From contig JASSKH010000001.1 of NCBI GenBank assembly GCA_031763025.1, positions 26,202,118 to 26,266,117 of the forward strand: a stretch of 64,000 bases of DNA. The letters run 5' to 3'. This document shows, piece after piece, positions 1 through 61,259 of the stretch; the stretch's first letter is position 1, and the number at the start of each line of letters is the position of its first letter. Both the position numbers and the translations under genes were made by a program. The notes beneath the pieces were generated by a model. It saw only the letters and a list, made by a program, of their open reading frames with translations, had not been told where the DNA came from and made no database searches. Source of the DNA: Macrocystis pyrifera (Eukaryota > Sar > Phaeophyceae > Laminariales > Laminariaceae).

Positions 1-267
1 ACACCACTTTTTTGGTTGTTGAAGAAGGTCAGGTATTAATAGTACTACTGCAGCATGCCGGTAGGCTGTTCAAGAGTTTCAGACAGCTGGCTGAGCCACC
101 AACTATTAACTATCATGTGAAGATTCCGGCCGCGACGAAGAGCTTGCTCCTACGAAGCCATACTTGAAAAATCCAGCGCGCGAGCCTTGCTTTCTTAACC
201 CTAGTTTCCGAAGTGTATGGGCCGTTTGGGACCACTATCTGTATACGGTAGAATATCGCTGTTACTA

Positions 268-379
268 TCACGGGGGGCCACAGCAATAATCAGGACCCAC
301 CGTATACACAAAAACCTATATGTTTCAGTATTCTTGCGAAGCAGATTCGGTCCTGATTTACTATTTTCCCCCCGGAGTG
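268..379 (+). mobile_element. TTACGGGGG MITE, copy 1 (degenerate)
   Basis: Decayed member of the dominant MITE. The left end reads CTA then TCACGGGGGG. The core keeps the sequence coding-like track 'cacaaaaacctatatgttt', and the right end is CCCCCCGGAGTG then TA. It is recognised by alignment with the better copies below. Confidence 0.65.
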
Positions 380-399
380 TACTCCCCACGTCGATAGGG

Positions 400-660
400 A
401 GGGCTGATTGATGGAGTCTTCTCGCGAAAAAAAATGAAAGGCACGAAGCTTTGTAGTGAGTGGGGGAAGGGGGGAGGGGGGAAGGAGAGCCTTGCTACGA
501 GTATGATGTGTTGGCCTCGGATCCGAGTTTCTTACGACTACTGTTAATATTAATATTGTAGGAGGGAGAGAGAAAAGAAAGGCGAAGGTAGTAAACAGGA
601 CGGAGAAAAGAAGAAACAAAACGAAAAAAAAAAAAAAAACGGTACACATATACAGCGTCC
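400..660. other. Intergenic low-complexity stretch
   Basis: Purine-rich sequence with a G-rich run near 460-485 and an A17 run near 624-640. It contains one TATTAATA octamer at 548-555. No gene, RNA or clear repeat boundary was recognised. Confidence 0.5.
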
Positions 661-664
661 CTAT

Positions 665-1040
665 GATACGCGCGGTCGTAAGGGTAATCGATCGATATTT
701 TATACCAGCAGGTACCCCTCTCTACAGCTCAGCAAGTAATATCCTCACAATTTGACGTCGTGGAGGACAAGGATGGATTCGAACCTCACTTCGAACGTTT
801 GTTTCATGGAAACGCTTGCGCGTTGCGGCTCTCACGGCACGCATCTCCCCGATTCCCCGGGTATTGAAACGAAGCGGGTAGGTAGAGGTCAGCGTACATG
901 CCGTACACGGTACCGACGCCCCAAAACATCCCGCCGTTCAGACGGGGGGGAAGCGTGCTATAAGGATTACCCCGGGCTGTGGGTAGTCGAACGATCTTTT
1001 ACCCCTACTCGTATACATAGCTCAGTACGCAATAACTTCA
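665..1040 (-). repeat. tRNA-related dispersed repeat, copy 1
   Basis: Shares blocks with 1285-1420, 11082-11260 and 11330-11510: GGGTAATCGATCGA, CAGCTCAGCAAGTA, GGATTCGAACCTCACTTC (a reversed tRNA B-box-like string), CCGCCGTTCAGACGGGG and AAGCGTGYTATAAGGATT. The order of the B-box-like and TGCTGAGCT blocks is not that of a normal tRNA. It is called a SINE-like or composite repeat, not a tRNA gene. Confidence 0.55.
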
Positions 1041-1284
1041 CAGCAGTACGTACGGTACCAAAGTTCGTTTTCCAATTTGAGGAGACGAGGGAACCCACAG
1101 GGAACACACACATATATACATATATGTTGATACCACGATTACCACCAACCATGGTGGTATCATAACGCATGATTTTTTAGTTTTTTAGGGATGCCTGCTT
1201 CCATGCACGCATGCGCCCCCCGCGCAGAAAGTGTTTATGGAAACTAAACAAATACATACATGAAAAACACGAAACGATGCAGCA

Positions 1285-1420
1285 GTCGGTGTAGACCCCG
1301 CCGTTCAAAGAGGGGGCGGGGGGGGGGGGGGGGGGGGGCGGGGGAAGCGTGTTATAAGGATTGCCCTGGCTGGGCTATGTGGGTAATCGATCGAAAGTTT
1401 ACCCCCTATGACAGCTCTCT
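1285..1420 (-). repeat. tRNA-related dispersed repeat, copy 2, with G21 run
   Basis: Partial copy of the repeat at 665-1040: CGCCGTTCAAAGAGGGGGCGGG, then a G run at 1318-1338, then AAGCGTGTTATAAGGATT and GGGTAATCGATCGAAA. The short G string of the other copies has grown to 21 Gs here. Confidence 0.55.
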
Positions 1421-1429
1421 GTAGTAGTA

Positions 1430-1534
1430 TTACGGGGGTCCATAGTCAATAGGACCTATGGTACACATAAAAACCTATATATTTACCTATTTTTAATGAC
1501 AATATTCGGTCCTACTTACTATGGTCCCCCGTAA
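1430..1534 (+). mobile_element. TTACGGGGG MITE, copy 2
   Basis: Near-intact 105 bp copy. TA target duplications flank it (AGTA | TTACGGGGGTCC ... GGTCCCCCGTAA | TAGT). The terminal inverted repeats (TIRs) extend about 27 bp inward and the core contains GGTACACATAAAAACC. No coding capacity, so non-autonomous. Confidence 0.9.
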
Positions 1535-1929
1535 TAGTAGGTAATGCCGCCACGACAGGACGTATATATTGGAGCCGTGCGTTCTCCCGCCATCGGCCAC
1601 AATCGACGCCGCTTGTTTGCTGTTGAAGGGGTTGCATCAAGCAGTTGATCAAGCAACCAACCCCACCATAAATCCTGGTGGTTTCTTAACAATATGGGAA
1701 ATATCTCATCGATTTATGTGTTTTCACGTTTGCAGACGCACCGCCCGTCGTTATTCGAGCAAATGGTTGAGGGTCAACCGAGGGTCAACCGCTGTGTACC
1801 GAGACGAATCACAGCAGCACAATATTGTTACTTCGAACTTCTCGTGAACCTAACGCTGAGCTAGTCAGACCCAATCAACCTTTTGGTTAGCGTTATTACC
1901 ATAAAAGCACGGCGATATTAATGCTACTA

Positions 1930-2037
1930 TTACGGGGGTCCAAAGTTAATAGGATCTATGGTATACATAAAAAAAAAGTATGTGTTTACCCATCTTTACT
2001 AACAGTATTTAGTCCTATTTCCTATGGTCCCCCGTTA
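1930..2037 (+). mobile_element. TTACGGGGG MITE, copy 3
   Basis: Flanked by CTACTA on the left and TAGTAG on the right. The left TIR is TTACGGGGGTCCAAAG and the right is TATGGTCCCCCGTTA. The core A-tract is expanded (CATAAAAAAAAAG). Confidence 0.88.
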
Positions 2038-2325: not shown

Positions 2326-2430
2326 GCTGTGGGGACCATAGTAAATAGGACCCACGCTACACACGAAAACCTCTATATTTCGGTATTGTCACAAACAACA
2401 TTTGGTCCTATTTACTATGGTCCCCCGCAA
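2326..2430 (+). mobile_element. TTACGGGGG MITE, copy 4
   Basis: The left end is degenerate (GCTGTGGGGACCATAG). The core ACACACGAAAACCTCTATATTT and the right TIR ACTATGGTCCCCCGCAA are clear. Confidence 0.8.
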
Positions 2431-2648: not shown

Positions 2649-2656
2649 TATTAATA
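2649..2656. repeat. TATTAATA scar on the TA flank of MITE copy 5
   Basis: The usual junction is CTACTA|TTACGGGG. Here it reads CTACTA TTAATA TTACGGGG, an exact 6-base TTAATA addition at the left target-site TA. See the scar finding. Confidence 0.75.
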
Positions 2657-2659
2657 TTA

Positions 2660-2703
<44 letters not shown>

Positions 2704-2795
2704 TAGTTAATAGGACCTACGGTACACACAAAAACCTTTATATTTACCCATTTTTACTAACAATATTTGGTCCTATTAACTATAGACCCCCGAAA
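2657..2795 (+). mobile_element. TTACGGGGG MITE, copy 5, with a G42 expansion inside the TIR
   Basis: The G5 of the left TIR has become a 42-base G run (2661-2702). The rest is normal: ATAGTTAATAGGACCTACGG, core, and TATAGACCCCCGAAA. The right arm keeps its short C run, so the expansion affects one arm only. Confidence 0.87.
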
Positions 2796-2940: not shown

Positions 2941-3048
2941 TTATTTCGGAGGTTCATAGTTAATAAGACCTATGGTATACATAAAAACCTTTGTATTTAC
3001 CTATTTTTACTGACAATATTCGGTCCTATTTACTATGGCCACCCGCAA
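2941..3048 (+). mobile_element. TTACGGGGG MITE, copy 6
   Basis: Left end mutated (TTATTTCGGAGGTTCATAG); core GGTATACATAAAAACC intact; right end TACTATGGCCACCCGCAA then TA. TA flanks on both sides. Confidence 0.82.
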
Positions 3049-3189
3049 TAATATTAGTAGTAATCAGGACCGAATATGGTTCATAAAAAAACCATACCGC
3101 TATGTCCCAATACATAAGGACTGTTTATCCATTGATGTTCAATGTAAACGATCTTATACCTAGGGACAGACAGGTACTACGTACGTAGG

Positions 3190-3910: not shown

Positions 3911-4029
3911 TTATCAAGGGGGGCCATATTAATAGTAAATAGGACCTATGGTACACACAACAAAAAAACTAAATATTTACGTATGTTTACCGACAAATAT
4001 TTGGTCCTATTTACTATGGCCCCCCGTAA
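3911..4029 (+). mobile_element. TTACGGGGG MITE, copy 7, interrupted by a TTAATA scar
   Basis: Left end TTATCAAGGGGGGCCATA; right TIR ACTATGGCCCCCCGTAA then TAGTA. The left TIR carries an extra TTAATA at 3929-3934 compared with CCATAGTAAATAGG of the other copies. Confidence 0.83.
3927..3934. repeat. TATTAATA scar inside MITE copy 7
   Basis: Reference copies read GGCCATAGTAAATAGG. This copy reads GGCCATA TTAATA GTAAATAGG. The single difference at this place is a 6-base TTAATA insertion at a TA, a clean empty-site comparison. Confidence 0.8.
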
Positions 4030-7475: not shown

Positions 7476-8129
7476 GTTCGGTAAATGTCCACAGCAGTAC
7501 ACGTTCGTAGGCCTTGCAAACTGTTCGACGGGTTGCCGCCTTCCTTCACACTTCACACCTGGCACTTTCTAAAAAAAGTTCAGCATTTTAGGGAATTAAT
7601 TAGAAGAGGTTGAAAGAGCAGCTCTCTTGAGCGAGAGGGAGAAGCCTCAGAAAAAAAAAAAAAAAGAAAAAGAGAAAATGTTGACCCTATCATAAACGTA
7701 GCCTACCGCAGCGAGGGTCTTGTGCAATACTGAACCCTCTGGAACGAACCCCCCTAGATAGCGGCCAAACCAATGGTTGGTAACTCTGATGCTATCCACC
7801 ATCTGCGAGCAGCGTGAGGGCGCGCCCGGCATTTAAGGGTAGGATCATCTTGCGCGCGAGCCATACGACCCCCTTCAACCATTGTGTCTCGGCATCGTCC
7901 CCCCAACCATTGGCTGCTGTAAAAATCGTCTCTTCCTTGTTCTTGTTCGTCAATTGATTTTGTTTTTGTGCAGCCCCCCCAAAAGGTTAATAACTATATA
8001 CTATGATAATCAATATTAATAGTAAGAGCTACGAACGTACTTGATGTTGGTCGCCTTTTTTTTCCGGCTCGTACAGTAGTGTCCTTGCTGCCCAGGCACG
8101 CACCTAAAAAATATTTGATCTGGAACAGA

Positions 8130-10029: not shown

Positions 10030-10092
10030 ACTCTGTCCCAAAAATCTAGTGACCTCTTCTATATTAATATCTAATAAAAATGTTACCTAAAT
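10030..10092 (+). mobile_element. Stowaway-like fragment
   Basis: Starts CACTCTGTCCCAAAAATCTAG and shares TTCTATATTAATATCTAATAAAAATGTTA with the fuller copy at 15199-15277. The right terminus is missing. The TATTAATA here (10062-10069) matches internal element sequence and is not counted as a scar. Confidence 0.5.
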
Positions 10093-11511: not shown

Positions 11512-11616
11512 TTACCGGGGTCCATAGTTAACAGGACCTATGGTATACATAAAAACCTATATATTTACATATTTTTACTAACAAATTTTGGTCCCGTTAA
11601 CTATGAACCCCCGTAA
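11512..11616 (+). mobile_element. TTACGGGGG MITE, copy 8
   Basis: TA | TTACCGGGGTCCATAG ... CTATGAACCCCCGTAA | TA, 105 bp, with the standard core. It sits at the 3' edge of the preceding repeat. Confidence 0.9.
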
Positions 11617-13581: not shown

Positions 13582-13685
13582 TTACGGAGGACCATAGTAA
13601 ATGGACCAAATAGTGTTAGTAAAAATACGTGAATATATAGGTTTTTATGTATACCATAGGTCCTATTAACTGTGGACCCCCGTAA
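13582..13685 (-). mobile_element. TTACGGGGG MITE, copy 9
   Basis: Left end AACA | TTACGGAGGACCATAG; right end TGTGGACCCCCGTAA | TAGTG. The core reads TAGGTTTTTATGTATACC, so it is inverted relative to copies 1-8. Confidence 0.88.
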
Positions 13686-15198
13686 TAGTGGTCTACTACT
13701 ATTAAAATATCAATATTAATACCAGGTTTTTAATAGTGCTCGTAACAGTGGCCGATCCGCCGATCCCCACAACTTACAAGGCACGACATTTTCACGAGCA
13801 AAGATAGCAATACTGCAGCAGTGTGCTGAAAGAAGTTTCGTGAACATTTATCATCCTCGTCCTCATCAGCCACCCTGCGGTTATACGTCATAGATAAAGT
13901 CAAATCGTACGTTACAACGTATCGTAGCTCACACGAAAGTTTTTTTTTTTGTGTTTCATCGGTCGATCCGATCCGCAACGTCTATTATGAATAAAAAGAA
14001 CACCTAGGATGCCCATTTACTTGGTTTATGTTCTTCCGGGGAAAGATCGCACGCACGCGTACAAGAAAAGAGTTGTCCCACGCACTCGCGAACGAACGAA
14101 CGAACGAACGAGCGAACGCATGCACGCACGCTCTTAGCTCTCAACAGGAGCAACAACAACAACAACAACAACAGCAACAGCAGCAGCGGCAGCAGCAGCA
14201 GCAGCAACAACAACAACAACAACAGCCGGCAGGACCCCAGCCGGGGAACCCGGAATTCCGAAAAAAAAAAAAAAAAAGGAAAAAAAAAAAAAAAAGTTGT
14301 TGAGCTTGTTTAGCATGAACGACGCGACAGCAACAGAGAACTGACGGAAGGCGTCATCACAGCAGCTTGCACAGCCAAGGCTAAGGCTAATAAGTTGCGA
14401 CGTGCCGGGAAGGCGTTCTCCGGAAGGCCGGTACCTGACCGAGAATACATTTATTTCCCGTATGCTAGAGCTGTAGCCGGCACTTTCACGACTGCAGTCC
14501 CCTTTCGAGGGCAAACTTTTTTTAAGATCTGAGTGCTTCGTCCCCCGGATGGAACGGCAGCTAGTCCTGAAATGGTCAAGTCGCCAACTAATAATATTAA
14601 TAGTTATTTAACAGTCGGAATACAGTACCCAGTTATAGTTGTTTGCTGGAGGTGCCGACTATCGGACTCAACGGGTTTCCACAATTGTACGTAGGAAGGA
14701 TTATTGAATGCACCTTTCGGGAAGGACTGACTAGGCTCGCTCCGCATCGCCCGGCTTAAAGTTGGCAAGTCGGCCGACCAATCAGTTGGCTTCGCCAGCC
14801 AGCCGACTTTTGCCTACTAGGGTCAGCAAGTTGGCTAATGGCGCCTATCGATTACACGTTGGTCATGAAGTCCTGCCGAGAATCGCAGCTCTGCCGTTTG
14901 GACTCTGAAGCGAAACGTCAAACGGTCACAGCGGTAGTTGATTGTTGTGTCTGCCACCCTGTTGTTCTACAACAATGTGCAGCAGCAGCGCGAGCTTCAA
15001 CGTTGATCGCTCATATTAAAACATTGTTTTGTATTGCCGAATGCCATCGACCTATCAATTCGCTCGCGAGCTCGCTCACACACAACAACACACGCACGGC
15101 AGTAGAGCACAGCACCGCAGCGGACCTTTGTTTATACTCCGGAGTGCCCGACAAAAACCCGGCATTTGGTGAAGCTCGTACAGTCTGTAATAATCTAC

Positions 15199-15277
15199 CG
15201 CTCTGTCCCAAAATATAAGAAACTTTTTCATACTAATATTCAATAAAAAAGTTCATTATATTAATAGAGGACAGAGT
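15199..15277 (+). mobile_element. Stowaway-like MITE
   Basis: The left end CTCTGTCCCAAAATATAAG closely resembles the Stowaway (Tc1/mariner-type) consensus. The right end is GAGGACAGAG, its inverted partner. The interior is AT-rich (CAATAAAAAAGTTCATTATA). A TATTAATA at 15259-15266 breaks the right arm, and its removal improves arm symmetry only modestly. Confidence 0.65.
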
Positions 15278-17316: not shown

Positions 17317-17627
17317 CTGCAAACACCGACAGCACGGAACGCCGCGCGTAAGACAACCAAGTCAAAACACACACGGTACCGCTCTGTCTATCCGGGTTTA
17401 TATAAGCTACGTTTGATGCTCACAATAGAGGCCACACAGGGATGGTATTCGCTAAGCAGGGTGGCACTAGGTAGGCATGATACACATCTATCAACCTATC
17501 TAGACCACGTAACACCCAAGTACAACATACTCGGAGAAAAAAACTAACCCCCGTCTAGGGCGACCTCCCAAGCTAATTTTCTCGACAAATGGGGAGAGAA
17601 AGAGAGAGGAATTACTATTACGGGGGA

Positions 17628-17721
17628 CCATAGTAAATAGGACCAAATATTGTTGGTAAAAATAGGTAAATATATAGGTTTTATGTGTACCGTAGGTCGT
17701 AGTTACTATGGTCCCCCGTAA
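17628..17721 (-). mobile_element. TTACGGGGG MITE, copy 10
   Basis: ACTA | TTACGGGGGACCATAG ... ACTATGGTCCCCCGTAA | TAGTAGG. Slightly short (94 bp). Inserted in an EndoV intron. Confidence 0.9.
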
Positions 17722-18972: not shown

Positions 18973-19077
18973 TTACGGGGGTCCATAGTTAACGGGACCA
19001 AATTTTGTTAGTAAAAATACGTTAATATATAGGTTTTTATGTATACCATAGGTCCTATTAACTATGGACCCCCGTAA
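18973..19077 (-). mobile_element. TTACGGGGG MITE, copy 11
   Basis: CACTA | TTACGGGGGTCCATAG ... CTATGGACCCCCGTAA | TACG. The arms match almost perfectly, 105 bp. Confidence 0.92.
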
Positions 19078-19745: not shown

Positions 19746-20320
19746 AGTGCCCGCCATGTGACCCTACGGGAGAATATGAGTTTACGAAAGGAGGGGAAGT
19801 GAAAAGTAGTAAGTAGGGCAAAGACAATAGACGGGATGAAAGAAAGAGGGTTATGGTGAGTATCTTACACCATTTTGCCTGGCTTTAAGCTGACGGGTTA
19901 TTGTGTAGATCTGACACACCCTCCTCCCCCGCAACGGTATCTGGTTGCTGGCGTGTGCATCCCATGTACCTGGTATTCCGAATTTATTAATAGTACGTCA
20001 GTACGTCGGCGAGTTACTGCATCGCCCAAACTTGCATTAAGTTTCGATGTACTATCTCTGTCTCGTAATTTGTGACCGCAGAGATTATTACACCTCTCTA
20101 GGATGAAGCATCAGCTCGGACACTGGATGTGCTTCTGTAGATGCCAGTGGGTATGGAAAGAACGGATTGAAGTGAAGAAGAGACACACCTCGCAGGAGAC
20201 GTTTAGGAACCCGGACAGTAGCTTTAGGAACCCGGACAGTAGCTGGCTGTTAGCTCAGTGGTTTATGGCGTGCATCATATTTATTATTTGCTATTGCGTT
20301 TGCCATCCGACAAAGTGCTA

Positions 20321-20427
20321 TTGCAGGGGACCATAACAGCAAAAAGGACCAAATGTTGTTAGTAAAAAGGGTAACTATATAGGTTTTTGTGTGTATCGTA
20401 GGTCCTGTTTACCGTGGTCCCCCGTGA
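20321..20427 (-). mobile_element. TTACGGGGG MITE, copy 12
   Basis: GTGCTA | TTGCAGGGGACCATAA ... CCGTGGTCCCCCGTGA | TA. A TTAATA scar lies on the right target-site TA. Confidence 0.85.
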
Positions 20428-20435
20428 TATTAATA
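20428..20435. repeat. TATTAATA scar on the right TA of MITE copy 12
   Basis: The left flank of the MITE is GTGCTA, so the expected right flank is TAGC. It reads TA TTAATA GC, an exact 6-base addition. Confidence 0.7.
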
Positions 20436-21870: not shown

Positions 21871-22358
21871 AACGAATTTCCTGGCATACCTGGCATGTTT
21901 TAACATCAACTATGAATGACGGTAATTTTACGTACTCTTCACTCTGATGGAAAACAAAAATAATATCGGTACGCGAAGCTTTCATGTTCATATGTATAAC
22001 GGGTTATCACATACTCCCTGGTACACATACTGCTGTACCACACACCAGCAGTATGTATTTACATTATACCACCAGATACCAGGTACACACGTACACCAGG
22101 TGCGAGAGAGGCCGGCTGTGATGTGCGTCGGATTCTTTCGCTGCTGCTTTGCCCTTCATGCATCAAAGCAGCAGCAGCAGCAGCAGTGCCACTACGACAA
22201 TATTTGAATATTTGAAGCCATTACGAGTATCATATCGTACCACCACCAGCACCACCCACCAGTAGTATTAATAGTGTTAATATTACCTCGTTTTAAGAAA
22301 AAGACACTGAACTCCACTTACTTGTTGTGAACTCTGCGCAAACATCCCGATTTATTTA

Positions 22359-22486
22359 TTACGGGGGGGGCGGACTATAGTAAATGGGACCTACGGTACA
22401 CATTAAAACCTATATATTTACCTATTTTCACTCAAAATATTTGGTGCTATTTTTACTTCCATATAATAAAAAATGGTCCCCCGTAA
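22359..22486 (+). mobile_element. TTACGGGGG MITE, copy 13
   Basis: TA | TTACGGGGGGGGCGGACTATAG ... AAATGGTCCCCCGTAA | GAGT. The right arm is split by about 20 extra AT-rich bases. Confidence 0.82.
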
Positions 22487-22499: not shown

Positions 22500-24950
22500 A
22501 ATAATTCAGCACGTTCAACGTTTGGTACAACGCGCATGCATGCAAAATGCACTATAATACTTGTATAATATATTATGTAATTAATTGTTTGTTGCCGATC
22601 AATGTCTGTGTGTCTGTGTGTCTGTGTGTCTGTGTCTGTACCGGCGGTACAGACGAAAGTCGGTCTATCCGCTGTCCGCCGTGTCTGTTTCTCTCGGGAT
22701 TTTTTCAGGATTATTGTTTATATTTTTTGAATAAAATATTGGTACGTCGTGTTAATACGAGTATACTAGTGTATACAAATACCAGGTATTCATTTTTCTC
22801 TTTAATAGTACGTCGTTTGGTAGACTCCATGTAGTAAGTACTACTACTGCTGTAAGTGATGTTAATATTTAAGTATATTATTATTAATAGTTTACTTGCT
22901 GACTGGTATATACTTGGCTGTATACATATACACATCCTCACTCGTATACATACTCACTCTACTCGTAGTCTACAGCAGTGTATGAAATAATCGCCGTTTT
23001 CTGGTCGCGATAAACGCGCATGCATACATAAATCGAAAACCTGGGGCTGCCTCATCTTGTCAAAGTGCCAATCAAAAATCAACAAACTATTAAAAAACAA
23101 AAAAATACAGCACCAACCAGCACCAGCACCAGCACAGCGGCACCAGCACCAGCACAGCACCAGCACCAGCGGCAGCAGCAGAAAAGATGAAATAATAATG
23201 GTAGTACCGCCGGCCGCCACAGCGATAAAAACAGAGAACCCAGAACCACCACAGGGCGAGGCCCCCCTGAAAATATCAGAATATCAACCAGCCGTTCATT
23301 CTTCTTCTTCGCAGCGGAGTGACAAGGGTCGACATCTATATTCCGATGAACATAAACCCATGTCTCGGCGTGGTTGGTCTATAATCTAAAATATCCGAAA
23401 TGAGACCCTCTCTGTATCCAAAACATTATATTCGGCCGATTTCAATTTTGGCGAGATATTTTAATTGAAAAAGCACCCGCCTGATGAACGTTGTGCGCTG
23501 TGTATATATATCCAGCTCGCCTTCTTGTGTTCGTTTGTACTGCTGTGCACAAAAAATGAAGTAAAAAAAAAAATGGCCTCTACTCCCTCGCTGAGCCCTG
23601 CTATGGATACCTCGTCCTCCTCCTCCTCTTGCTCGGGCACGCCAGGGGCAGAGGTCGGCCGCCGGAGGCAGCCAACAATAATATATCCCTGCGCTCTCGG
23701 CGATCAACAACAACAACAGATAGATGATATTATTATTATTGCAGATTTTTCATCTATCTATTTTATCCAGATCTACCAGTACCTGTCTCTATGTCTCTTT
23801 GTTCTGCTTCCGCACGAGATTTCCTGTCTCAACAGAATTTAAAAGTCACGACCATATACCACCGCGCGTCGTTTCTCGTGACGTGTGACAAAATTCTTCT
23901 CCTCAAATATGGCTATCATAATCTGCTGTCTTGGTGGAAAAACTATTACCACCAGGTATATTAAAATAATAGTGATACGTGTACATACGTACTTCACCTC
24001 GTATAGTATACCTGCCAGTCAGTGCTATGTGACACGTATAAACCACTGCTGCGGTGATGGTGTGCTGCTATTATTCATAAGGTTCTGGTGTAACTAACTG
24101 CTGTTACACAGCACAGCCGTAGTGTACCTGTACAACATGCATGCATGCATGCCTGCAGCTGCATGCTCAAAAGTCAGAGAAGTGCCGTGTGGAGAAAAAC
24201 CTGATTTGCCTGCCTCCCTTTCTTTGATTGTTGTCTTTGCTTTGCCCTTTCTTTTTCTCTCATTTTTCTCTCTCTGGACTCTGTGCACTCTCTGTGCACT
24301 CTCTCACCCATCCAATGCGCTTCCAAAGTTTCTTCTTCTCGTGGCTCCTCCGACATCTTCTACTGATGATACTGCTGCTTGTGTGCAGCCTATTATATAT
24401 ACTCTAGACGAGTAATATGGTATCAGTATATCTCCCCGACCATGCGTAGTACGTACTATCTCTGTCTCTTCTCGTTTTAATTTTTCCTTGGCCGGGTACA
24501 AAATACCCTGGTTGTGCTGCGCACACCCCGCCCCTCAATCGATGCTGCTGCTCACACCAGTTGTCGTGGTTGTTGTGGTTGTTGTGGCGCCTCGGGCGAG
24601 CAGGGGCTGGCGTCGGGGGCCACAATGCTCGGAAGTGTCCGAGGCTTTCAAAAATTCGGCTCCAGGAAGCCTCCGAAGCGCAACTTACATACGGTTCCCG
24701 CCATAAAATTCCGCGAGACTGTTGTTTTGATGACATACGACCGTTTTTTTTTTTTTTGTATTTGACAATCAATGCACACACACACGCCGCTTCTGATGTA
24801 CGCCCCCCCCCCCCCCTCTCTCCCTCTCTCTCTTCTCTCTCTCACAAACACCATCATCACTACCACATCACACACGCTCTCACAGCACCGCCACAACACC
24901 ACCACAGCCGAGTAGCCCCGATCTTTCGACGATCACAGCTGTAGCGTGAC
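22500..24950. other. Region between the divergent EndoV and EsV-1-7 genes
   Basis: Holds two TATTAATA octamers, a (TGTC)n-like microsatellite near 22605-22640, a CAG/CAC-rich stretch (23108-23180) and CT-rich sequence (24810-24845). A start codon in good context at 23573 opens a short Ser-rich frame (MASTPSLSPAMDTSS) that could be an upstream exon of either gene's neighbourhood, but no donor or homology supports it. Promoters of both genes should lie here. Confidence 0.35.
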
Positions 24951-28330: not shown

Positions 28331-28894
28331 TAGGAGGATTTACCCACACAGCACAGCGATCTTCTGGACAAGCCGTGGTCACAGGTGTCGTCCCTTCCTC
28401 CCCCCGCTACGTGCCTTTATTGTTTGTCGCGTATAGGGTTCAGCGTTCCCACTGCTCGTCGATTTTTGTCGAATGTAGCTAAGTCACGCTTTTCGCGCTT
28501 TCCCCTGATCAATTTTTGTGTGAGAAAAAGTCCCTACGAGCGTGCACTCGGTGAGACTCGAACTCACGAAGTTGATCTTGATAGGCTCGCGGACCACCTA
28601 CCAAGCCACCGGGGACGCCGTGTATTAATGATAGTCGCCAATTACTCCGCGTGCCTACGAAAACCATTTCGTGGGTTCGAGTCTCACTGAGTGCATACTC
28701 GTACAGCAGTACGAGTAGGGACTCTTCTTGGATAAAAGTGATGCCGGAAAGCGCGAGAGCGTGAGTTTGCAACGTTCGATGAAAATCGATGAACAATGGG
28801 AATGCCGAAACCCTATGCGCGATTAGGAATGAAGGGACGACACCTACCTGTGACCGCGGCTCGTCCAGAAGATCGCTGAGGGTAAAGCCTCCTA
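28331..28894. mobile_element. 565 bp foldback element with inverted tRNA-like arms
   Basis: Two ~250 bp arms are inverted copies: TAGGAGGATTTACCC...CAGCGATCTTCTGGACAAGCC on the left, GGCTCGTCCAGAAGATCGCTG...GGGTAAAGCCTCCTA on the right. Each arm holds a tRNA-like B box (GGGTTCGAGTCTCAC at ~28674-28688; its complement at ~28549-28566). The left arm read in reverse also has an A-box-like TGGCTTGGTAGG. Flanking TAs fit a TA-targeted element. It lies in EsV-1-7 intron 2. Confidence 0.75.
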
Positions 28895-28900
28895 TTAATA
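28893..28900. repeat. TATTAATA scar at the right end of the foldback element
   Basis: The left end is TA|GGAGG, so the right end should read CCTCC|TA. It continues as TATTAATA, placing an extra TTAATA on the target-site TA. Confidence 0.6.
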
Positions 28901-32794: not shown

Positions 32795-33098
32795 CAGTAG
32801 TGTTTTGCGAGTTAACCAACTCACGCAGTCCCACCACTTACGGGATGGGTTGGCGGCCTGTCTGTGCGCGGTGCCGCGCGTTCTTGTCTTTTTCCGGCGT
32901 CGCGAAAGTGCAGAATCCAGGAGCTAGAGCTGTCATACCCTGAGTATTTTTACTTACTATTATACTGTCTGTACGTATCTATGTACCAGGTACGTATATA
33001 TATGTACGTGTGCACTATTAATACCAGTACAAGATGATAGCAGCATGTTGTTTTTTTGGTGTATGTTTAACGTTTACGGCGCGGCATGGTACTACTAA

Positions 33099-33112
33099 TA
33101 TTAATATTAATA
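33099..33112. repeat. Double scar TATTAATATTAATA
   Basis: Two overlapping octamers share one TA, as expected if an element inserted into, and left, a TA of an existing scar. Confidence 0.55.
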
Positions 33113-33788
33113 GTATTTATTCATACCGCGGTATGGCGGCACCACTATTGATGTTTTCCCTTTTTTATGGTATCCTAGGTTTCTACGTTTACGTCACGGG
33201 GTGTGTGTGTCTGTCTGTCTGTCTGTCTGTATGGTACCGCGGTAAAGTAAAGCGGCACTACTATTAATATTATGGTTTTCTCTTTGAAACTGCGCTTATT
33301 CTTTGCGAATGGCGTTCGTATTATTATGCTTGTTGATAGAATGGAATAATGGAATAACGCTCTGCAGCGGTGCTGGCGCTGACTGAAGTATGTTGCGTCG
33401 TAGGGGGTGACTCAACAAGTACAATTTTAACGGCGTTATTTTATTGGTATGTCGGTAACGCGTAAGAGTGCTGGTTATTTCAAAGAAGGGGTGCGGTCGG
33501 TTTTTCAGTGCTGGGTTTGTTTCTCGACAACAGCAGCAGTAAGAAGGACAGTAAGGACAGTAAGAAGGGCTTCGAGCTCTAATGTCGAGCAACTATGTTT
33601 TCGGATGGCTCTCGACCAGATTTTTTGCGAAAACGCCTTGTTCCCATATTGGCAAACCTTCCCGTTCTCGAAAAAACGAACGAGCGTTGAAAGACGATGC
33701 GCGCCCCTTTTCGATAACCCGCACCCTTACGGTACTCAGCGGGCAGTGTGTAGTTTATGAATGGAATGCATACATACGTTGCCAGCTA

Positions 33789-34078: not shown

Positions 34079-34162
34079 TTACAGCAGTCCCGTTGTGGGG
34101 ACAAGCCACTCAAATTCTAACTATTAATAGTTTGTCTCCCAAACGGGACTGCAGTCTTGAAA
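34079..34162. mobile_element. CTGCAGTCCCG foldback MITE, copy 4, interrupted by a TTAATA scar
   Basis: TTACAGCAGTCCCGTTGTGGGGACAAGCCACTCAAATTCTAAC...GTTTGTCTCCCAAACGGGACTGCAGTCTTGAA. Confidence 0.85.
34122..34129. repeat. TATTAATA scar inside the foldback MITE
   Basis: The reference at 18164 reads CCAAGTAGTTTGTCC. This copy reads CTAACTA TTAATA GTTTGTCTCC. Apart from point changes the difference is TTAATA at a TA, in a different element family from the MITE cases. Confidence 0.8.
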
Positions 34163-35523: not shown

Positions 35524-36280
35524 GTACATGTAGATGGTTATTGTTATTTATAGTAATATGTACCACGTACCAGATGTAATGTTTGTTCACGATATCATAC
35601 ATTCATGTGTATACATACATGCATGCATTTATGCATTTTGAAACTTATGCGAACTGTACATACATAGAGCTAACGATGATAAGCGACTTCGTCAGCCTCG
35701 CAGGCAGGCAACGCAGCAGCAGCAGCACGAATCGAAGCCCCTCCTCCCCTCCCCACGCCCGCTTCCCCCGCGACTCCCCCAAGCACCCCTGCGCGTGCAT
35801 GCCTGCCTCGGCCCCTGCCCCTGCCCCTGTCCCACGTGACTTTCCGTGTCATATGTGGTGAAATACTGCACTGCTGCTGCTGTGCTGCTGTATGATTGCA
35901 ACAAAATAGTGATCCGAAATATGATGTAGAGTGACAACAAAAAAAAAAGAAATGAAACGGGATCGAACGGTTCGACACGCATAACGTTTATTGGCAACGC
36001 ACGTTGCTTGCTTTTGGTTTCAATAGCAATAGCGGCACATGCTCGACAACGGTAACGGCACAAACGGTACGGCAAGAAAAATAGCCCACGCACGTCATGG
36101 GAACCCCCCCCCCCCCCCCAAATGGCCTCTCCGCCTCCCCACTCGCCCAACCGCCCCACCTTTTCACCAAGGCAAAAATTATATGCTATTATTAATAGTT
36201 TCATGTACAATAATTTCCCCTCTATAGCGTCTGCTTAATTACGTACCTTGTATATAGCCTTTTCGACTGTCGCAAGCTCA

Positions 36281-38159: not shown

Positions 38160-39031
38160 AGAGAAGAGATAGGGATAACACCGTATTGTTCACGAGGCAA
38201 ATGGACTAAGCGAAAACGCTGAAACCGCGACTTCGTGTAGGCGACCTGGACCTGCCAGAAAAAAAGAAAGAGGTATACCGGTAGCCTGGAGGAGGAGGAA
38301 GTAGATGCACAGATGTGCCCCCTGTGGCAAAAGCAATAGATATTACGGGGAGACCATAGGCAAATAGGACCTACGTTACACACAAAAACCTACTGGTATG
38401 TATTTGCCTATTTCTACAAACAATACTTGGTCCTACTTACTATGGTCCCCCCGTAATGTTGATGGCACTATAGAGTGGCAGAATGTGAAATGCACAAGGA
38501 GGAACGGGTTGTGTTGGAGAAGATGATGAAAACGGATGAATGTGACATGGAGGAGCTTGGTGCACTATTAATACTGCAGAAGAGAGCAGCGAGAAAGCGA
38601 TGGCTATCCTAGGAGATAGGTGGTGGTGCCACAGGCCGCGAAAGAGGAAGGGGGACAATATTCGGTACAACTTTCTGCGTATGTGATACATGGACACAAC
38701 ACAATGAGCGGAGGTGTCTCTATTCTTTCGAGTAGGAAGGGTGCTCCGTCTCGAAAGGGATGCCTGGTCAGTGGCCATACGACTAAGAAAGAAAGGCAAG
38801 ATCGCTATCCTAGGAGATAGATGGTGGCCACAGGAGGCCGAACAGGAAGGGGATAAGATTAGCAAAAAGTTTCTATTTAATTTATGGAAACAACGTAATG
38901 AGCGCCCAATTGTTGGAGGTGTCTCTATTAGGAGTAGGAACGGTGCTCCGTCTCGAAAGGGATGCGTGGTCAATGGTCAAATGACTAAGGCAAGCAACAA
39001 AATGAGTACGCCCCCCCCCCCCCCCCCCCCC
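38160..39031 (+). mobile_element. Non-LTR-type retrotransposon remnant, type B, copy 2, poly(C)-tailed
   Basis: Rearranged remains of a reverse-transcriptase C-terminal region. Fragments similar to RVGDLDLPE and a CPCGKA-type zinc motif are followed by AILGDRWWP-type segments, which appear twice (38600 and 38790). It ends GGTGCTCCGTCTCGAAAGGGATGCGTGGTC...AACAAAATGAGTACG and then 21 Cs. MITE copy 14 and a TATTAATA (38566) interrupt it. Confidence 0.7.
38343..38456 (+). mobile_element. TTACGGGGG MITE, copy 14
   Basis: GATA | TTACGGGGAGACCATAGG ... CTATGGTCCCCCCGTAA | TGTT. Inserted in the type B retroelement: the related copy at 39470 continues CAATAGAGAGCAG without it. Confidence 0.88.
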
Positions 39032-40404: not shown

Positions 40405-40510
40405 TTACGGGGTCCATAGTTAACGGGACCAATTTTTGTTGAGTAAAAATAGGTAAATATATAGGTTTTTATATGTACCATAGGTCCTACTAACTATGTA
40501 CCCCCCGTAA
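40405..40510 (-). mobile_element. TTACGGGGG MITE, copy 15
   Basis: ACTA | TTACGGGGTCCATAG ... CTATGTACCCCCCGTAA | TAAC. Confidence 0.9.
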
Positions 40511-44467: not shown

Positions 44468-44573
44468 TTACGGGAGACCATAGTAAATGGGACCAAATTT
44501 TCTCAGTAAATATAGGGAAAAATATTGGTTTTTGAGTGTTACCGTAGGTGCGATTTACTATGGACCCCCGTAA
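44468..44573 (-). mobile_element. TTACGGGGG MITE, copy 16
   Basis: TATCA | TTACGGGAGACCATAG ... CTATGGACCCCCGTAA | CAATG. Both flanking dinucleotides are CA instead of TA. Confidence 0.87.
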
Positions 44574-44915: not shown

Positions 44916-45034
44916 TTACGGGGGACCATAGTAAATAGGACCAAATACTGTCAGTAAAATTTGGCAGGCGAGCATATAGGTTTTGTTTTGTGTGTACCGT
45001 TACCGTAGGTCTTATTTACTATAGTCCCCCGAAA
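44916..45034 (-). mobile_element. TTACGGGGG MITE, copy 17
   Basis: ACTA | TTACGGGGGACCATAG ... CTATAGTCCCCCGAAA | TG. The core is slightly longer (GTTTTGTTTTGTGTGTACCGTTACC). Confidence 0.88.
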
Positions 45035-45845
45035 TGTTAATACAACGTATGTAATGGTATGATACCAGTTATTAATAGCACGGCACCTGGTACCCTGACA
45101 TATACAATACGGAACGTACACTTTCGTCACGCAAGGGCATTCCACAAACAAAAGCGGCGGCGACTTCAACGCTCACTGCAGAGAGATCCAACAGCAGTGG
45201 CGCCGGCGATAGAGGCGGCGACACTTGCAACACCAACAAACCACACTACGCACAGCAGGCTTGCTCCAGAAAAGGAGGGTATGGTTGATACACATCAATC
45301 GTAGCACGATACTGCTGCAGCTTGCTTGATACAGCGATAGCTTAGCTTACCACGTATTCGAGGAAAATGGTTGAGGGTAACTGCTGCTGTGTAAAAGAGA
45401 GACGAAATACAGCAGTAGAACTTCCCCTGACCCTGAGCCAAATCCCAATCCAACCATTGTCACAAGTCGTGCGCGCGTGTGTGCCAACCATTTTCTCGAA
45501 CGAATGGCAAGCTCTTGCATTCAGATCCAGCGCATATCACACGCCACGCCGCGACAATACACACAAGCCACTGATCCAAGCACGCCCCGACCGTGAAAGA
45601 ACGATCCGAACACACCGATCGCGCCATCCGTCTGTCCAACAAATTTCCCCCCCCCGATTTTTTTTTTTTTTTCTGCCGAAAAAATTTCCCAGAATCTGCC
45701 AAGAAGTTCCCAGACACAAAATACGCCCATTTGCAATAAAAGCGGCTTTCCTTGCAGGCGGCATTACCGTACGGACCGGCCCGACGGAAAAAAAAAAATA
45801 AAACGCGCACCAGATACGAGGACTATCGATATCAATCTTTTTAGT

Positions 45846-46323: not shown

Positions 46324-46393
<70 letters not shown>
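46324..46393. repeat. C70 homopolymer
   Basis: Seventy Cs in the SR intron. The preceding bases (GGACCACGATTT) do not match the type A or B termini. Confidence 0.9.
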
Positions 46394-46541
46394 ACGTATC
46401 ATTATTATTAATAGTGAGTGCCGGCTTCCGGCAAAATTACCACAAGTATCCTACAGGATGAAATGTGAATACTCGTACTACTGCTGTGTCCAGATACATC
46501 AGCACCAGGCAGGTGTATGGGCTACATAAAAACACAAACCT

Positions 46542-54255: not shown

Positions 54256-54659
54256 CTTCCCGAAATACGAGCAAGCTTTGAAGCGAGGTTATGAGCGAAA
54301 AGCCCCGAGCCTACCAAACGTCGGGTACGCGGGTTTGAATTTTCAGGTGCGACAATTTCGGCATCCACTTTTTTTTTTTTTTGGCAATTTAGATACACTA
54401 TTAATAGCGTACGTACTTCGTACCGGTACCAGGTACAGACAGTATCAACTGGCCGTGAATGTAATCACCCGTTTGGAGTACGATGTCAATACCAAACGGG
54501 TGTTATATTTCAAGACAAAATAGTGGAAGTATGTTTCCGTGTCCATTTCACTTGCTCTCTCCCACGGCTTCGGACGCTCGTCTACCTTCCGGACAAGCCC
54601 AGGCGCCACAGGCGCCCCTCCACCCCCCCCGACCCGACACCGTATGAACACCCAAAATA

Positions 54660-55045: not shown

Positions 55046-55795
55046 ACGCCTTTCTGATAACCACGCATTGGGGGCTAGCACTTGCACCGTATGTACAGGG
55101 GGGAGAAAGGAGCCCAACGAGCAGAAGGTTCAGTATTCCCACCGTAAGTGGTGGAGGAGGGAGAGACGCCTGCTACTACACACGGCAGGGGGGGGGGGGT
55201 TCCCTCCACAACCCCGGTAGAATCGCTTGGCACAGATGGGGATTAACCAGAGTGCGGAGGTGTGCGGAATAATGCCCCGGTGTATTGGCCTTGCAAATAC
55301 CGGCAACATAGAAGGACCGCTGTTGTATCCGCCATCTGCATGTGACCCTGGATCTGAGTCACGAGAGGAAGGAGGCCTGGAGAAACAACGGCAAAGGTAA
55401 CATGAGAATACCTGATACCGAATGGGATTGGGGAAACAAAGAAAAACAAAACAAAAACTGCGACGGATCGACCGACGTTCGTCGAATCGTGCCAACCTTC
55501 CGTATGTGGGCTCATGTGGGCTATGTATGACCCTGCTGCCTATAAAAAATCAAAACTACGGAGGCCGCAACCGACGCTCTGGCGCGTTCAACGACGGAGG
55601 AAGAAATTTTCCCCGTCCATCAAACATCAAAGCCCCAAACTTCCGTCAGCAGGCACGGATGGCAATCTATTAATAGTTGTAGTCCCCCCGACCCCGCTTG
55701 CACTCATAAAAATACCTGGTACCTCGTATACACCGATACACCAACAAAGACGTTACTGGCACATGCCTTCTCCCCGCTTTTCTACAGCAATACTA

Positions 55796-55904
55796 TTTTA
55801 CGGGGGTCCATAGTTAACGGGACCAAATTTTGTTAGTAAAAATAGGTAAATATATAGGTTTTTATATAAACCAAAGGTCCTATTAACTATGGACCCCCGT
55901 AAAA
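55796..55904 (-). mobile_element. TTACGGGGG MITE, copy 18, with symmetric TT/AA extension
   Basis: ACTA | TTTTACGGGGGTCCATAG ... CTATGGACCCCCGTAAAA | TAGT. Both termini carry two extra bases (TT left, AA right) between the TA and the usual TTACGGGGG end. Confidence 0.9.
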
Positions 55905-56462: not shown

Positions 56463-57575
56463 GGGGGGGGTGGGGGGGGGCGCAAGAAAATATAGCCAAG
56501 AAATCACAACCAGTGTCAGGCGCTCAAGCAAACCCACGTGTAAGAGCATCTGCATCACCTATATCTACAGCAGCACATGTTTCTTTGGTGCCATATGTAC
56601 TATACTGTACTTACTATATTTTTTTTTCTTCAATCCTCCGGCGGATTGGTAAAAATGAAGCTTTAAGCTCAACGACACTTCCACGTCCAAATTTTTTGTG
56701 TCGTGCGTCAAATCTATACCGATTCACGCGCAAGATCTCAAAACGGCAGATTAGGATCTACATATAATAGATGATCTATCTGATCTTTCCGATGCGTGCA
56801 AGGTTTTCGCCTTTCGCTCAGGGTACGTATGACACAACAGGAAAAAAAAGTTTCTGGGTGGCAGGTCCATACTGTATGATGATACCCAATGCTGTAGGCG
56901 GAAATTATAGTATCTCTCGTGCCTTTTCAAAATATCATCGCGGCGCAGGTTGCGTGTGTGCGAGCGACATCGCGACATGCGCTCGCACACGGCGGATCAG
57001 GGTCCTCGTCGACACGAAGGCCGTGTCTTCTGTTTCTACAAAAAGGTACTGGGTCAGCCGTTGGCGTCCGCACATTCGCGGTGGGTTGTGTGCTATTGCT
57101 GTACGGTAGTTGATTGCTACAATCTCAAGGGAGTGAGCGATTCGTCGGCGACCGTACGCACATCCGTGGTGGCCATGTGTTACTGTTGTGCTTCTCGCCT
57201 TACAGCTCACTGCCATAATCTACTGTAGCGCACGATCGGTCACAAATAAAAGCACGCAAGGAAGGCCGGAAAACAAAAACAAACACCTCATTCGGGGGGG
57301 GCACCAGAGTGCATACATACAGCAGTAGTGGTCTGGTCCCTCTATAGTGCCGTTTGAGCAGTGCCGGCCTCCCGCTTTGGTGGCGGCGATATTCGCTTGG
57401 TATATACGTGCGGGACAAACCAGCGTGGCAAGGTGCCGGGTAGTGCCGATTGCCGCTATTAATACCAAACATGTATATTTATAAAAATTATAAAAAACAA
57501 CAACAACAGATGTGAGATCGAGCATTTGTTTGAAGCTCATCGTTGCAAGCTGTGTGTTATACTCTAATATTACTA

Positions 57576-57680
57576 TTACGGGGGACCATAGTAAATAGGA
57601 CCAAATATTGTCAGAAAAAATTGGTAAATATATAGGTTTTTATGTAGACCATAGGTCCTATGAACTATGGACCCCCATAA
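57576..57680 (-). mobile_element. TTACGGGGG MITE, copy 19
   Basis: ACTA | TTACGGGGGACCATAG ... CTATGGACCCCCATAA | CAGT. The right-arm CpG has changed to CA. Confidence 0.9.
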
Positions 57681-59016: not shown

Positions 59017-59121
59017 TTACGCGGGCCCATAGTAAATAGGACCTATGGTACACACAAAAACCTACATATTTCCCTATTTTTACTAACAAAATTTGGTCCC
59101 ATTTACTGTGGTCCCCCGTAA
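59017..59121 (+). mobile_element. TTACGGGGG MITE, copy 20
   Basis: CTAGTA | TTACGCGGGCCCATAG ... CTGTGGTCCCCCGTAA | TAGG. Nested in the foldback MITE. Confidence 0.9.
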
Positions 59122-59161: not shown

Positions 59162-59266
59162 TTACGGGGGGACCATAGTAAATAGGACCAATTATTGTTA
59201 GTAAAATAGCAAAATATATAGGTTTTTGTGTCTACCGTAGGTCCTATTTAATACGGCCCCCCGTAA
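59162..59266 (-). mobile_element. TTACGGGGG MITE, copy 21
   Basis: CTACTA | TTACGGGGGGACCATAG ... ATACGGCCCCCCGTAA | TAAA. Opposite orientation to copy 20, 40 bp away. Confidence 0.9.
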
Positions 59267-59283
59267 TAAAAGGGTTAACTCGA

Positions 59284-59335
59284 CCCTTTTAGGACTGCAG
59301 TCCCGTTCAGGGGACACAACACTTGGAATTACAGT
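59284..59335. mobile_element. CTGCAGTCCCG foldback MITE, left arm only
   Basis: CCCTTTTAGGACTGCAGTCCCGTTCAGGGGACACAACACTTGGAATT. Confidence 0.6.
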
Positions 59336-59544
59336 GAGATAATAGAGGCACATGAACAGCAGTGCAGTACGACAAAGGATTGATGAAGGGCCATGGGATC
59401 GTTCATCGGAACGAGCGCACATATTACTTTCATCACAGCCAGCCAATATTTCCGAATGTTCAGACAGATAGATAATCGATTCCCAAAGCATGATCAAGAC
59501 GTTTCAAGGAAAGACATATATTCCCGATGTTTGTACTTTACATA

Positions 59545-59755
59545 TTAGAGGGCTCTTCACGAGTCATAACCCGGCCCACGGATCGGGTCACAAGAACTTT
59601 CTGACATATCACAGTTCGGGTCGATTCGGGTCAGGTCTCGGGTCTGGTCAGGTCAGTAGGTTTTCAAACTCTCAGGGGTCGGGTTGGGTCAACCTTACCC
59701 CACCCAACCCGACCTGACGCGCGAGGCTTGACCCGACCCGTGAACAGCCCTCATG
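59545..59755. repeat. GGGTC pentamer repeat, second copy
   Basis: GGATCGGGTCAC ... (GGGTC)n ... GGTTTTCAAACTCTC ... CCCGACC...GACGCGCGAGGCTTGACCCGACCCGTGAACAGCC. An inverted relative of 5228-5370, which has AAACCTCGCGGGTCGGG and TTTTGAAAACCTC. Confidence 0.6.
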
Positions 59756-59764
59756 GTATTCCCT

Positions 59765-59962
59765 ACTCGTAGATCATGTTACCCGGTGGGAGCCGTGTAG
59801 TCTGCACCATCTATTAACTGTGTAGCACATATTTCCTGTCTTGGATCTGTACTATGAATACACAGATCCTGCACACCATATCATAACGACATGCTGGGAT
59901 CTATTAATAGGTGGTCTACAGATAGATCATGATCTGTCTCATCTGTCTGTCCGACGTGGTGG
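59765..59962 (-). repeat. GATCT-rich TIR element, copy 6 (partial)
   Basis: TAGATCATGTTACCCGGTGGGAGCCGTG, ACAGATCCTGCACACC and GATAGATCATGATCTGTCTC...GTCTGTCCGAC. It abuts SR exon 1, starting within 25 bases of the donor. A TATTAATA lies at 59902. Confidence 0.65.
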
Positions 59963-59987
59963 TGGCTTACACCTGCTTCTTTCTTAC

Positions 59988-60166
59988 CTAGCCCTCACGG
60001 CCTCATCCGCGTCCCTGGAGTCCTCGAACGTGACGAACCCGAACGCCGGGGGCCGCTCGGGCATCTTGAGCTGCATGTCGGTAATCTTTCCGTACTTGTA
60101 GAAGATATCCTCAAGGTCTTTCTCCTTCATGTCCATGGGCAGGTTGCCGATGTAGAGCCGAGACAT
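59988..60166 (-). CDS. SR splicing factor, exon 1 (start and most of RRM1)
   Basis: Fifty-nine codons plus two bases. Starts MSRLYIGNLPMDMKEKDLED and contains the RNP2 motif (LYIGNLP) and RNP1 motif (AFGFVTFED) of a canonical RRM, then DADEAVRAR. The start is the first Met and fits the usual start of SRSF1/SR34 proteins. The donor GCTAG|GTAAGA is in phase 2 and joins the exon at 51655 to give AVRARDGYDFDGHRLRV. SR proteins of this type bind exonic enhancers and select splice sites. The intron that follows is about 8.3 kb. The whole gene spans about 17 kb for roughly 250 codons. Confidence 0.96.
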
Positions 60167-60339
60167 GTTCGCTTTGGTCTTGTTGGTGGTGGGTGGGTGG
60201 TGGTAGGTGCTAGGAGGCGACTCGACCAGGCTGCTGCTGTCGTTGCGCTTCTTCCTTTCTTTCTCTCCTTCCCTCGGTGCTGGTGTCTGTCTGCTAGCGG
60301 CTGCATTTTTTCGTTTTATTTGGGGAGGGGAGGGAGGGA

Positions 60340-60366
60340 GGGGAGGGGGGGGGGGGGGGGGGGGGT
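60340..60366. repeat. G-rich homopolymer
   Basis: AGGGGAGGGG followed by about 21 Gs, upstream of the SR start codon on the plus strand. Confidence 0.7.
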
Positions 60367-61259
60367 TGGAGATGCTAGAGGTAATTAATTTACCGGGACA
60401 TGTATGAATATTATTACACTTAGCGACGGTAAAAATACTGCACTTGTCGACCTTGTTTTCGTTCAGTAAAATATCCTACATGAGAGATGTGGCTAAGAGA
60501 TACCAGGCAATCCATGATTGATACCAAGTATCTGGTACGTACCAGCTACTACGGACAGACAGCAGCATGGCTAATACCTGGTCAATACGAGGTACGTCAA
60601 TACCAGGTAAATATTGTTGTTTCTGGTATACTGGTCACACTCATGATACCAGGTACGTGATACTATAATAAACATACTTAAAAGAAAGAACGAATCATAC
60701 GTACAAGATGTCTGTGTTTAAATAAATGTTCAGACAAAATTCAGTCCGACCAATGTATGTGCTGTAGTCCATACTTGGCGCAAACATGTACGAGGTACAC
60801 ACATGTATGACGAAACACTACGCAATAATTTTCTCTGTGGTCTATCGATGCACCGGTACTAACAAGTACAGGCCGCCATTACAGCTACAGAGTACTAAAC
60901 GCACAGCAGCATCTTGGGAACAATCTCGGTCCCGGTAAAGCAGCAACGGGGACGGCAAGGAATCGGGAGCAATACGTATGGTGTACCCACGACGGGAACA
61001 TTTTCCTGGGGACATGCACTATTAATATCAACAGTATTAAGAAGAGCAGCAACGAAAGGATGCCATCAAAGTTTCGCAACTACCGCCTCGCTCAGACCAT
61101 ACTTCGTACATTCTTCACGAGGTCAAATACAGCAGAAAAAAAAACACTACTGTATTATTAGGAGCACGCGCGATCGAAACATCACACGGCACCTGCGAAA
61201 ATATGGAGGTTTCTTCCCCCACGCTCGCTAAATATTTCATACTTCCGACATACCCTCGG

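Follow-up and report, generated by a model that had tools for sequence, protein, structure and literature searches.

The window, a 64,000-nucleotide (64-kb) stretch of the giant kelp Macrocystis pyrifera (contig JASSKH010000001.1, positions 26,202,118 to 26,266,117), contains three open reading frames (ORFs) with recognised domains, 21 copies of a miniature inverted-repeat transposable element (MITE) and numerous copies of the palindromic octamer TATTAATA. Two ORFs in the window carry the EsV-1-7 cysteine motif (PF19114), which is typical of brown algae. The MITE is approximately 105 bp long and is bounded by terminal inverted repeats TTACGGGGG...CCCCCGTAA. An initial annotation of this stretch had read the octamers as scars left by excision of the MITE, and it is this reading that is weighed here.

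Genome-wide counts refer to the assembly of 537,376,219 bases in 223 contigs (537.4 Mb), which is described as 537 Mb in 35 scaffolds and 188 contigs with a GC content of 50.37% (PMC10498591). Local samples were of 264 kb (palindrome ranking), 304 kb (empty paralogues and TA-X-TA words) and 314 kb (counts of scars and MITEs, flanks and inverted repeats).

Abundance of the octamer and the MITE

The initial annotation counted about 31 octamers by eye. All 31 positions proved to be exact matches and the window holds no others, compared with a mean of 0.88 and a maximum of 5 in 100 dinucleotide shuffles of the window. The enrichment extends to the whole genome, where TATTAATA occurs 94,130 times and the reversed word, used here as the control in place of shuffles, 7,522 times (12.5 times rarer). 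The octamer is denser in the window (0.48 per kb, 31 in 64 kb) than in the genome (0.175 per kb). Within 264 kb it lies 20 times above first-order expectation and, among the 8-base palindromes seen at least 20 times there, only ATATATAT and TATATATA outrank it.

That these two palindromes are still more enriched would suit an origin of the octamer as an AT-rich simple repeat or mutational product, for example by slippage of TTAATA units, and tandem octamers do exist (3 TATTAATATTAATA in 314 kb). However, 29 of the 31 window octamers stand outside any tandem arrangement and their flanks are dissimilar, the reversed word is rare, and the C found at position -1 is absent from TATTATTA runs. With the lack of such inserts at a non-TA site (0/30, see below), we consider slippage a very improbable source.

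The MITE is similarly widespread, TTACGGGGG being found 40,983 + 41,200 times genome-wide against 2,094 + 2,018 for its reversed form, and the repeated 12-mers of the sample derive chiefly from it. The 314-kb sample contains 77 copies, and a search of it for inverted repeats showed the TTACGGGGG family to be by far the commonest of those flanked by TA. A TA target duplication is present on both sides in 28/42 near-full copies, with 10 of the other 14 one base off, and mean divergence is 9.7% from two consensus strings drawn by eye. Assignment to PIF/Harbinger was rejected, the 3-bp flanks TTA/TAA being inverted where that group has a direct TWA duplication. Stowaway was also rejected, the kelp ends being TTACGGGGG where Stowaway inverted repeats, and those of the rice mariner elements described in PMC4423477, start CTCCCTC.

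Empty, filled and putatively scarred states of the same TA

Empty paralogues, in which the flanks of an octamer are joined ungapped at a single TA, were found for 3/69 octamer sites: 25 for L021:3768 and 18 for window position 3927, both in MITE copies, and 2 for window position 34122. The two window cases are those for which the annotation had described a related sequence differing by exactly TTAATA, and both comparisons hold, the 18 paralogues of 3927 carrying the TA only. These same paralogues bear on the possibility that the TTAA core of TATTAATA marks the target or remnant of a piggyBac- or Kolobok-type element, and piggyBac families are reported from Ectocarpus (PMC12477816). However, the empty paralogues hold TA and not TTAA, the MITE duplicates TA, the scar adds 6 bp to TA, and piggyBac excision is described as footprint-free (PMC3878927), which leaves such an origin highly doubtful.

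Insertions of 1-30 bases were then scored at defined positions of the MITE itself, namely site 1 (the TA in ACTA^TGG), site 2 (TTGTTA^GTAA) and a non-TA control site (TAGG^ACC). Site 1 carries 569 insertions genome-wide and its reversed control 0; among the 100 of these listed, 12 are six bases long and 7 of the 12 are TTAATA. Exact 20-mers across site 1 returned 62 scars and 77 MITE insertions, again with 0 for the reversed controls. At site 2 there are 118 insertions, and TTAATA accounts for 43 among the 100 listed. When only the 35 scaffolds are considered it makes up 24/73 of the listed insertions and 24/34 of the six-base inserts, a further 9 differing by one base. At the non-TA site the 30 insertions include no TTAATA; local duplications or short slips account for many, and there are a few other inserts of 4 to 9 bases. 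The sample contains 8 uninterrupted copies of site 1, 1 of site 2 and 5 of the non-TA site, and the shortage of inserts at the last is therefore not simply a matter of few targets. An alignment of the repeat family reveals, as the excision reading anticipated, TA, TA-MITE and TATTAATA states at the same TA, with no such insert at the non-TA site.

Other repeats gave smaller numbers. In the second repeat family (GGGACAAAC-TA-), 1/6 insertions is TTAATA and 1/6 is CAGTA. Among small indels between repeats in the sample, 14/37 six-base indels have the form TA-X-TA, with TTAA as X in 3 rows (2 sites). Comparison of 62 MITE copies with the consensus yielded 14 inserts of at least 3 bases, 6 of which are six bases long, one of them at the octamer L021:3768.

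Several further inserts were considered as scars and set aside. At site 1, +TGTA (15 among the 100 listed) can be read as a duplication of TATG because its mirror form +CATA is absent, and +TTACTA (3 among the 100 listed) is a tandem duplication. At site 2, +TAATA occurs 4 times among the 100 listed with no mirror form, and may have arisen by scar decay.

Target-site preference and the candidate source element

Octamers and MITEs prefer the same kind of TA. The bases preceding TA are T.50, A.59 and C.47 for octamers (144 flanks) and T.57, A.68 and C.64 for MITE ends (69), compared with.29,.28 and.20 for all TAs. The CTA/TAG preference described in the initial annotation is common to both, and extends to TAC|TA. 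A flank matrix trained on MITEs separates octamers from random TAs with an area under the curve of 0.769 +- 0.018 (0.83 for MITEs themselves, leave-one-out), while nine other sets scored 0.472-0.642 (CG 0.472, CCAGG 0.475, CGAG 0.488, AATT control 0.528, CAGCAG 0.549, TT 0.562, CAG 0.572, TTA 0.579 and TATTATTA 0.642). Among seven possible footprints of a TTAC...GTAA element, TTAA has the highest AC-flanked share (40/144, background 5.6%), followed by TTAC/GTAA (5/26), T/A (174/1758), TTA/TAA (11/138), TT/AA (23/528), TA (16/564) and TTATAA (0/2). Products in which the MITE ends anneal to leave one copy were rejected on these figures, TT/AA not being AC-flanked and TTA/TAA lying near background.

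Octamers and MITEs also meet physically. MITE ends fall on an octamer edge in 3/69 cases, where the proportion of TA edges predicts approximately 0.3. The annotation had placed the extra TTAATA on the TA flank of an element at 2649, 20428 and 28893; the octamers at 2649 and 20428 adjoin MITE ends, and that at 28893 adjoins a TA-flanked inverted-repeat element of 560 bp with GGAGGATTTACCC ends (28333-28892), the octamer lying on its right TA.

Any TT...AA element inserting at TA would leave the same word, and the MITE could not be matched to a transposase. The octamers might therefore be footprints mainly of another TA-target element of this kind, extinct or autonomous, and one TA-flanked TTTGCG... 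inverted repeat was found (L009). The predominance of the TTACGGGGG family among TA-flanked inverted repeats, the flank preference common to MITEs and octamers, and the occupation of the same TA by both make this unlikely. The search for a transposase from an element with TTACGGGGG ends, expected by the annotation to be of the IS630-Tc1-mariner type, linked none. Thirty-nine matches to DDE_1 were found genome-wide; the results for DDE_3, Transposase_1 and the one DDE_1 copy read are given with the counter-evidence below. When the 314-kb sample was searched for a long, autonomous element bounded by MITE ends, 12 of 139 ends were orphans but no convincing pair emerged. At L036 (C202:8064900-8069400) lies a Pogo-like transposon in which DDE_1 and CENP-B_N ORFs were identified but no ends were seen.

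Probable decay of the octamer

Words one substitution away from TATTAATA exceed their reversed controls, an imperfect null for this purpose, by 87 (69 of them transitions), compared with 68 intact sites in the 314 kb. As a rough estimate, this would correspond to approximately 14% change per base and approximately 223 original scars in the sample. Intact scars number 68 and MITE copies 77. With decay allowed for, the ratio of scars to MITEs would be, again roughly, 3 to 1, in contrast to the 68:77 of intact copies and the 62:77 at the single site.

Other TA-X-TA words

Further words of the form TA-X-TA are strongly over-represented in 304 kb: TACCAGGTA/TACCTGGTA (75 bins, 2.1 expected), TACGAGTA/TACTCGTA (51 bins, 6.4 expected), TACAGCAGTA/TACTGCTGTA (32 bins, 0.4 expected) and TACAGTA/TACTGTA (79 bins, 29 expected). 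Genome-wide counts for TACCTGGTA are 60,614 + 60,665 compared with 1,182 + 1,239. The pair TACCAGGTA/TACCTGGTA is found 28 times in the window (6819, 10949, 19967, 21785, 21845 and 23 more); its genome-wide total of 121,279 is 50 times that of the reversed control. It may be the five-base scar of an element that did not turn up in this analysis. Among the 100 insertions listed at site 1 are +CTGTA (7), +CAGTA (6), +CGTA (5), +CCAGGTA (1) and +CCTGGTA (1). The words CAG, CCAGG and CGAG suggest further scar classes, and the genome seems to carry several where the initial annotation saw one. No abundant source element for CCAGG, CGAG or CAGCAG was seen in the sample, so the scar status of these three is a lead only. 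CGAG resembles what we take to be the Minos footprint.

In a comparison of contig C4 with C5 (L035:5128 and L034:5091), a +CAGTA insert resembling the Sleeping Beauty footprint was seen at a TA adjoining an octamer. These two were considered as alleles and rejected as such, being paralogous contigs with 94.9% identity. Some of the contigs C1-C188 have large repeats in common, as C4 and C5 do, and word positions suggest a 120-kb internal repeat in C3.

Features of the window

The annotation also held that no scar falls in a recognised exon. This stands for the three domain-bearing ORFs, the only ones compared, which contain 0 octamers; it is not established generally. At 33093-33112, stacked octamers make successive use of one site visible. 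The MITE at 55798-55902 is flanked as if it had inserted in the middle of an octamer, or as if its ends were two bases longer. Elsewhere, a tandem array of approximately 21-bp units containing TACTGCTGTA occupies 10380-10600, long G or C homopolymers lie at 2661-2702, 42326-42395 and 46324-46393, and a run of 100 N at 37684-37783 is probably an assembly gap.

Table 1. Octamers and MITE copies in the window. Octamer and MITE rows carry no strand assignment.
Position	Feature	Remark
34..41	octamer (candidate scar)	exact match
270..372	MITE (aligned part)	old, 75.7% to consensus
548..555	octamer (candidate scar)	exact match
1430..1534	TTACGGGGG MITE	
1930..2035	TTACGGGGG MITE	
2331..2430	MITE (aligned part)	
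2649..2656	octamer	right TA is flank of MITE starting 2657
2657..2795	MITE	G run expanded to >40 bases; begins at octamer 2649-2656
2944..3048	MITE	
3927..3934	octamer inside MITE copy	+TTAATA at site-1 TA; 18 empty paralogues in sample
3932..4029	MITE (aligned part only)	scar 3927-3934 near one end
8014..8021	octamer (candidate scar)	exact match
10062..10069	octamer	exact match; candidate part of another element (initial annotation)
11512..11616	MITE	
13582..13685	MITE	
13714..13721	octamer (candidate scar)	exact match
14595..14602	octamer (candidate scar)	exact match
15259..15266	octamer	exact match; origin less certain, AT-rich context; perhaps part of another element (initial annotation)
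17618..17721	MITE	CTA/TAG flanks
18973..19077	MITE	
19985..19992	octamer (candidate scar)	exact match
20321..20427	MITE	right flank is octamer at 20428
20428..20435	octamer	right TA flank of MITE at 20321
22266..22273	octamer (candidate scar)	exact match
22359..22486	MITE	longer variant
22882..22889	octamer (candidate scar)	exact match
28893..28900	octamer	on right TA flank of 560-bp inverted-repeat element (28333-28892)
29516..29523	octamer (candidate scar)	exact match
30168..30175	octamer (candidate scar)	exact match
32609..32616	octamer (candidate scar)	exact match
33016..33023	octamer (candidate scar)	exact match
33093..33112	stack	decayed TACTAATA (33093) plus octamers 33099 and 33105 with common TAs; read as at most 3 excisions
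33262..33269	octamer (candidate scar)	exact match
34122..34129	octamer inside second repeat family (GGGACAAAC-TA-)	2 empty paralogues in sample
36190..36197	octamer (candidate scar)	exact match
38343..38456	MITE	+TACCAG insert at TA
38566..38573	octamer (candidate scar)	exact match
40405..40510	MITE	
44468..44573	MITE	
44916..45034	MITE	
45070..45077	octamer (candidate scar)	exact match
46406..46413	octamer (candidate scar)	exact match
54399..54406	octamer (candidate scar)	exact match
55668..55675	octamer (candidate scar)	exact match
55798..55902	MITE	flanked by TATT and AATA, not TA
57457..57464	octamer (candidate scar)	exact match
57576..57680	MITE	
59017..59121	MITE	
59162..59266	MITE	
59902..59909	octamer (candidate scar)	exact match
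61020..61027	octamer (candidate scar)	exact match

Discussion

The octamer adds TTAATA exactly at a TA, does so repeatedly at the same TA, has the target preference of the MITE and is accompanied by variants of the kind expected from ageing. The insert is also what a Tc1/mariner-type MITE would leave, namely a few terminal bases plus TA. From these features of the sequence we conclude that excision of the abundant TTACGGGGG MITE, or of elements with the same ends, most probably (at a probability of roughly 0.86) left TATTAATA behind as a footprint, and the excision-scar reading of the initial annotation is to that extent supported by the inserts at TAs, the MITE-like flanks and the excess of one-substitution words.

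On excision, Tc1/mariner elements are described as leaving 3′ overhangs of 2 or 3 nt, from which the footprint is formed (PMC7827188, PMC3878927). In the kelp, a transposase of this type would insert the MITE at sites resembling TAC-TA-GTA. On excision the cut in the transferred strand would lie at the tip of the element and that in its partner two bases further in, giving TATT-3′ on each flank. Because TT cannot pair with TT, end joining would then fill in and keep both overhangs, yielding TA-TT-AA-TA, and excisions repaired in this manner would have accumulated in the genome.

Several observations weigh against this reading. All comparisons were made inside one haploid assembly. The rate of empty paralogues is 3/69 for TTAA compared with 28/1636 for other four-base X, some cases being tandem repeats or shifted readings of one insert, and is highest for ATAG (5/64); this test alone therefore favours TTAA weakly. 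Some scars may have multiplied by copying of the MITE that carried them, so that counts within MITEs are not all independent. Unplaced contigs, at least two of which (C4 and C5) are paralogous, hold 19 of the 43 TTAATA listed at site 2, and some of these scars may be copies. MITE and octamer counts per 10-kb locus are weakly correlated (rho 0.34, p 0.10). The AC-flanked shares of TTAC/GTAA and T/A leave room for other minor products, and four one-substitution words are only weakly biased in their flanks (T.45, A.37, C.31, n=95). Among transposase domains, DDE_3 gave 0 matches and Transposase_1 gave 0, with controls equally silent, and the one DDE_1 copy read, which has a CENP-B_N ORF nearby, has no exact MITE end within 4.5 kb. 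Finally, the joining step is one that we infer.

The kelp footprint resembles those of Tc1/mariner elements in its TA target and in the few terminal bases plus TA left after excision. Footprints tabulated in PMC3878927 are C(A/T)GTA for Sleeping Beauty, matched in the kelp by the +CAGTA and +CTGTA inserts at site 1, and T(T/A)A for Hsmar1, from which the kelp product differs. Unlike these, the TTAA scar would keep both 2-nt ends rather than one annealed overhang, and its copy number is of genome scale. Footprints of Triticeae Stowaway MITEs likewise consist of 1-4 bp of the inverted-repeat ends between TA duplications (PMC1925063), but that study describes five putative footprints at one intron, compared with approximately 94,000 of one word here. 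A study of rice DNA transposons that included short mariner elements also compared excision with insertion (PMC4423477), and reports 8/94 excisions as perfect and the rest with deletions or filler. In the kelp, unlike rice, one 6-bp insert leads at site 2 (43 among the 100 listed) although not at site 1 (7 among the 100 listed), precise excisions and deletions, if any, being invisible to the methods used. Mariner-Tc1 MITEs in high copy are known from brown algae through the TcMar families of Ectocarpus (PMC12477816), in a paper whose main text does not contain the words footprint or excision. The earlier footprint studies (PMC1925063, PMC4423477) concern one locus or a comparison between two species. 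Among the matches listed from the open literature (titles and the starts of abstracts, with subscription literature mostly outside), we recognised no account of TA-X-TA scars on a genome-wide scale, whether in kelp or in other organisms.

A broader proposal, which we hold tentatively and at somewhat short of even odds, is that the kelp genome is an excision fossil record of multiple lineages, in which TTAA, C(A/T)G, CG, CC(A/T)GG, CGAG and CAGCAG would be scars of different element lineages, some of them gone. The word would be set by pairing of the cut ends: where overhangs pair, a single copy with its central mismatch resolved would remain; where they do not, as with TT, both would be kept. 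Were this so, excision-to-insertion ratios and ages could be read for each lineage from one genome.

If the octamer is indeed the footprint of the MITE, a single genome keeps a countable record of former element positions. Tens of thousands of stereotyped scars could be counted, dated by their decay and compared with the surviving copies, and the rate at which elements depart, and how they nevertheless still multiply, would become directly measurable in one haploid genome. The same scars would offer a view of how breaks with non-pairing 3′ ends are joined in brown algae, and might be used as presence/absence markers in breeding and population studies of kelp.

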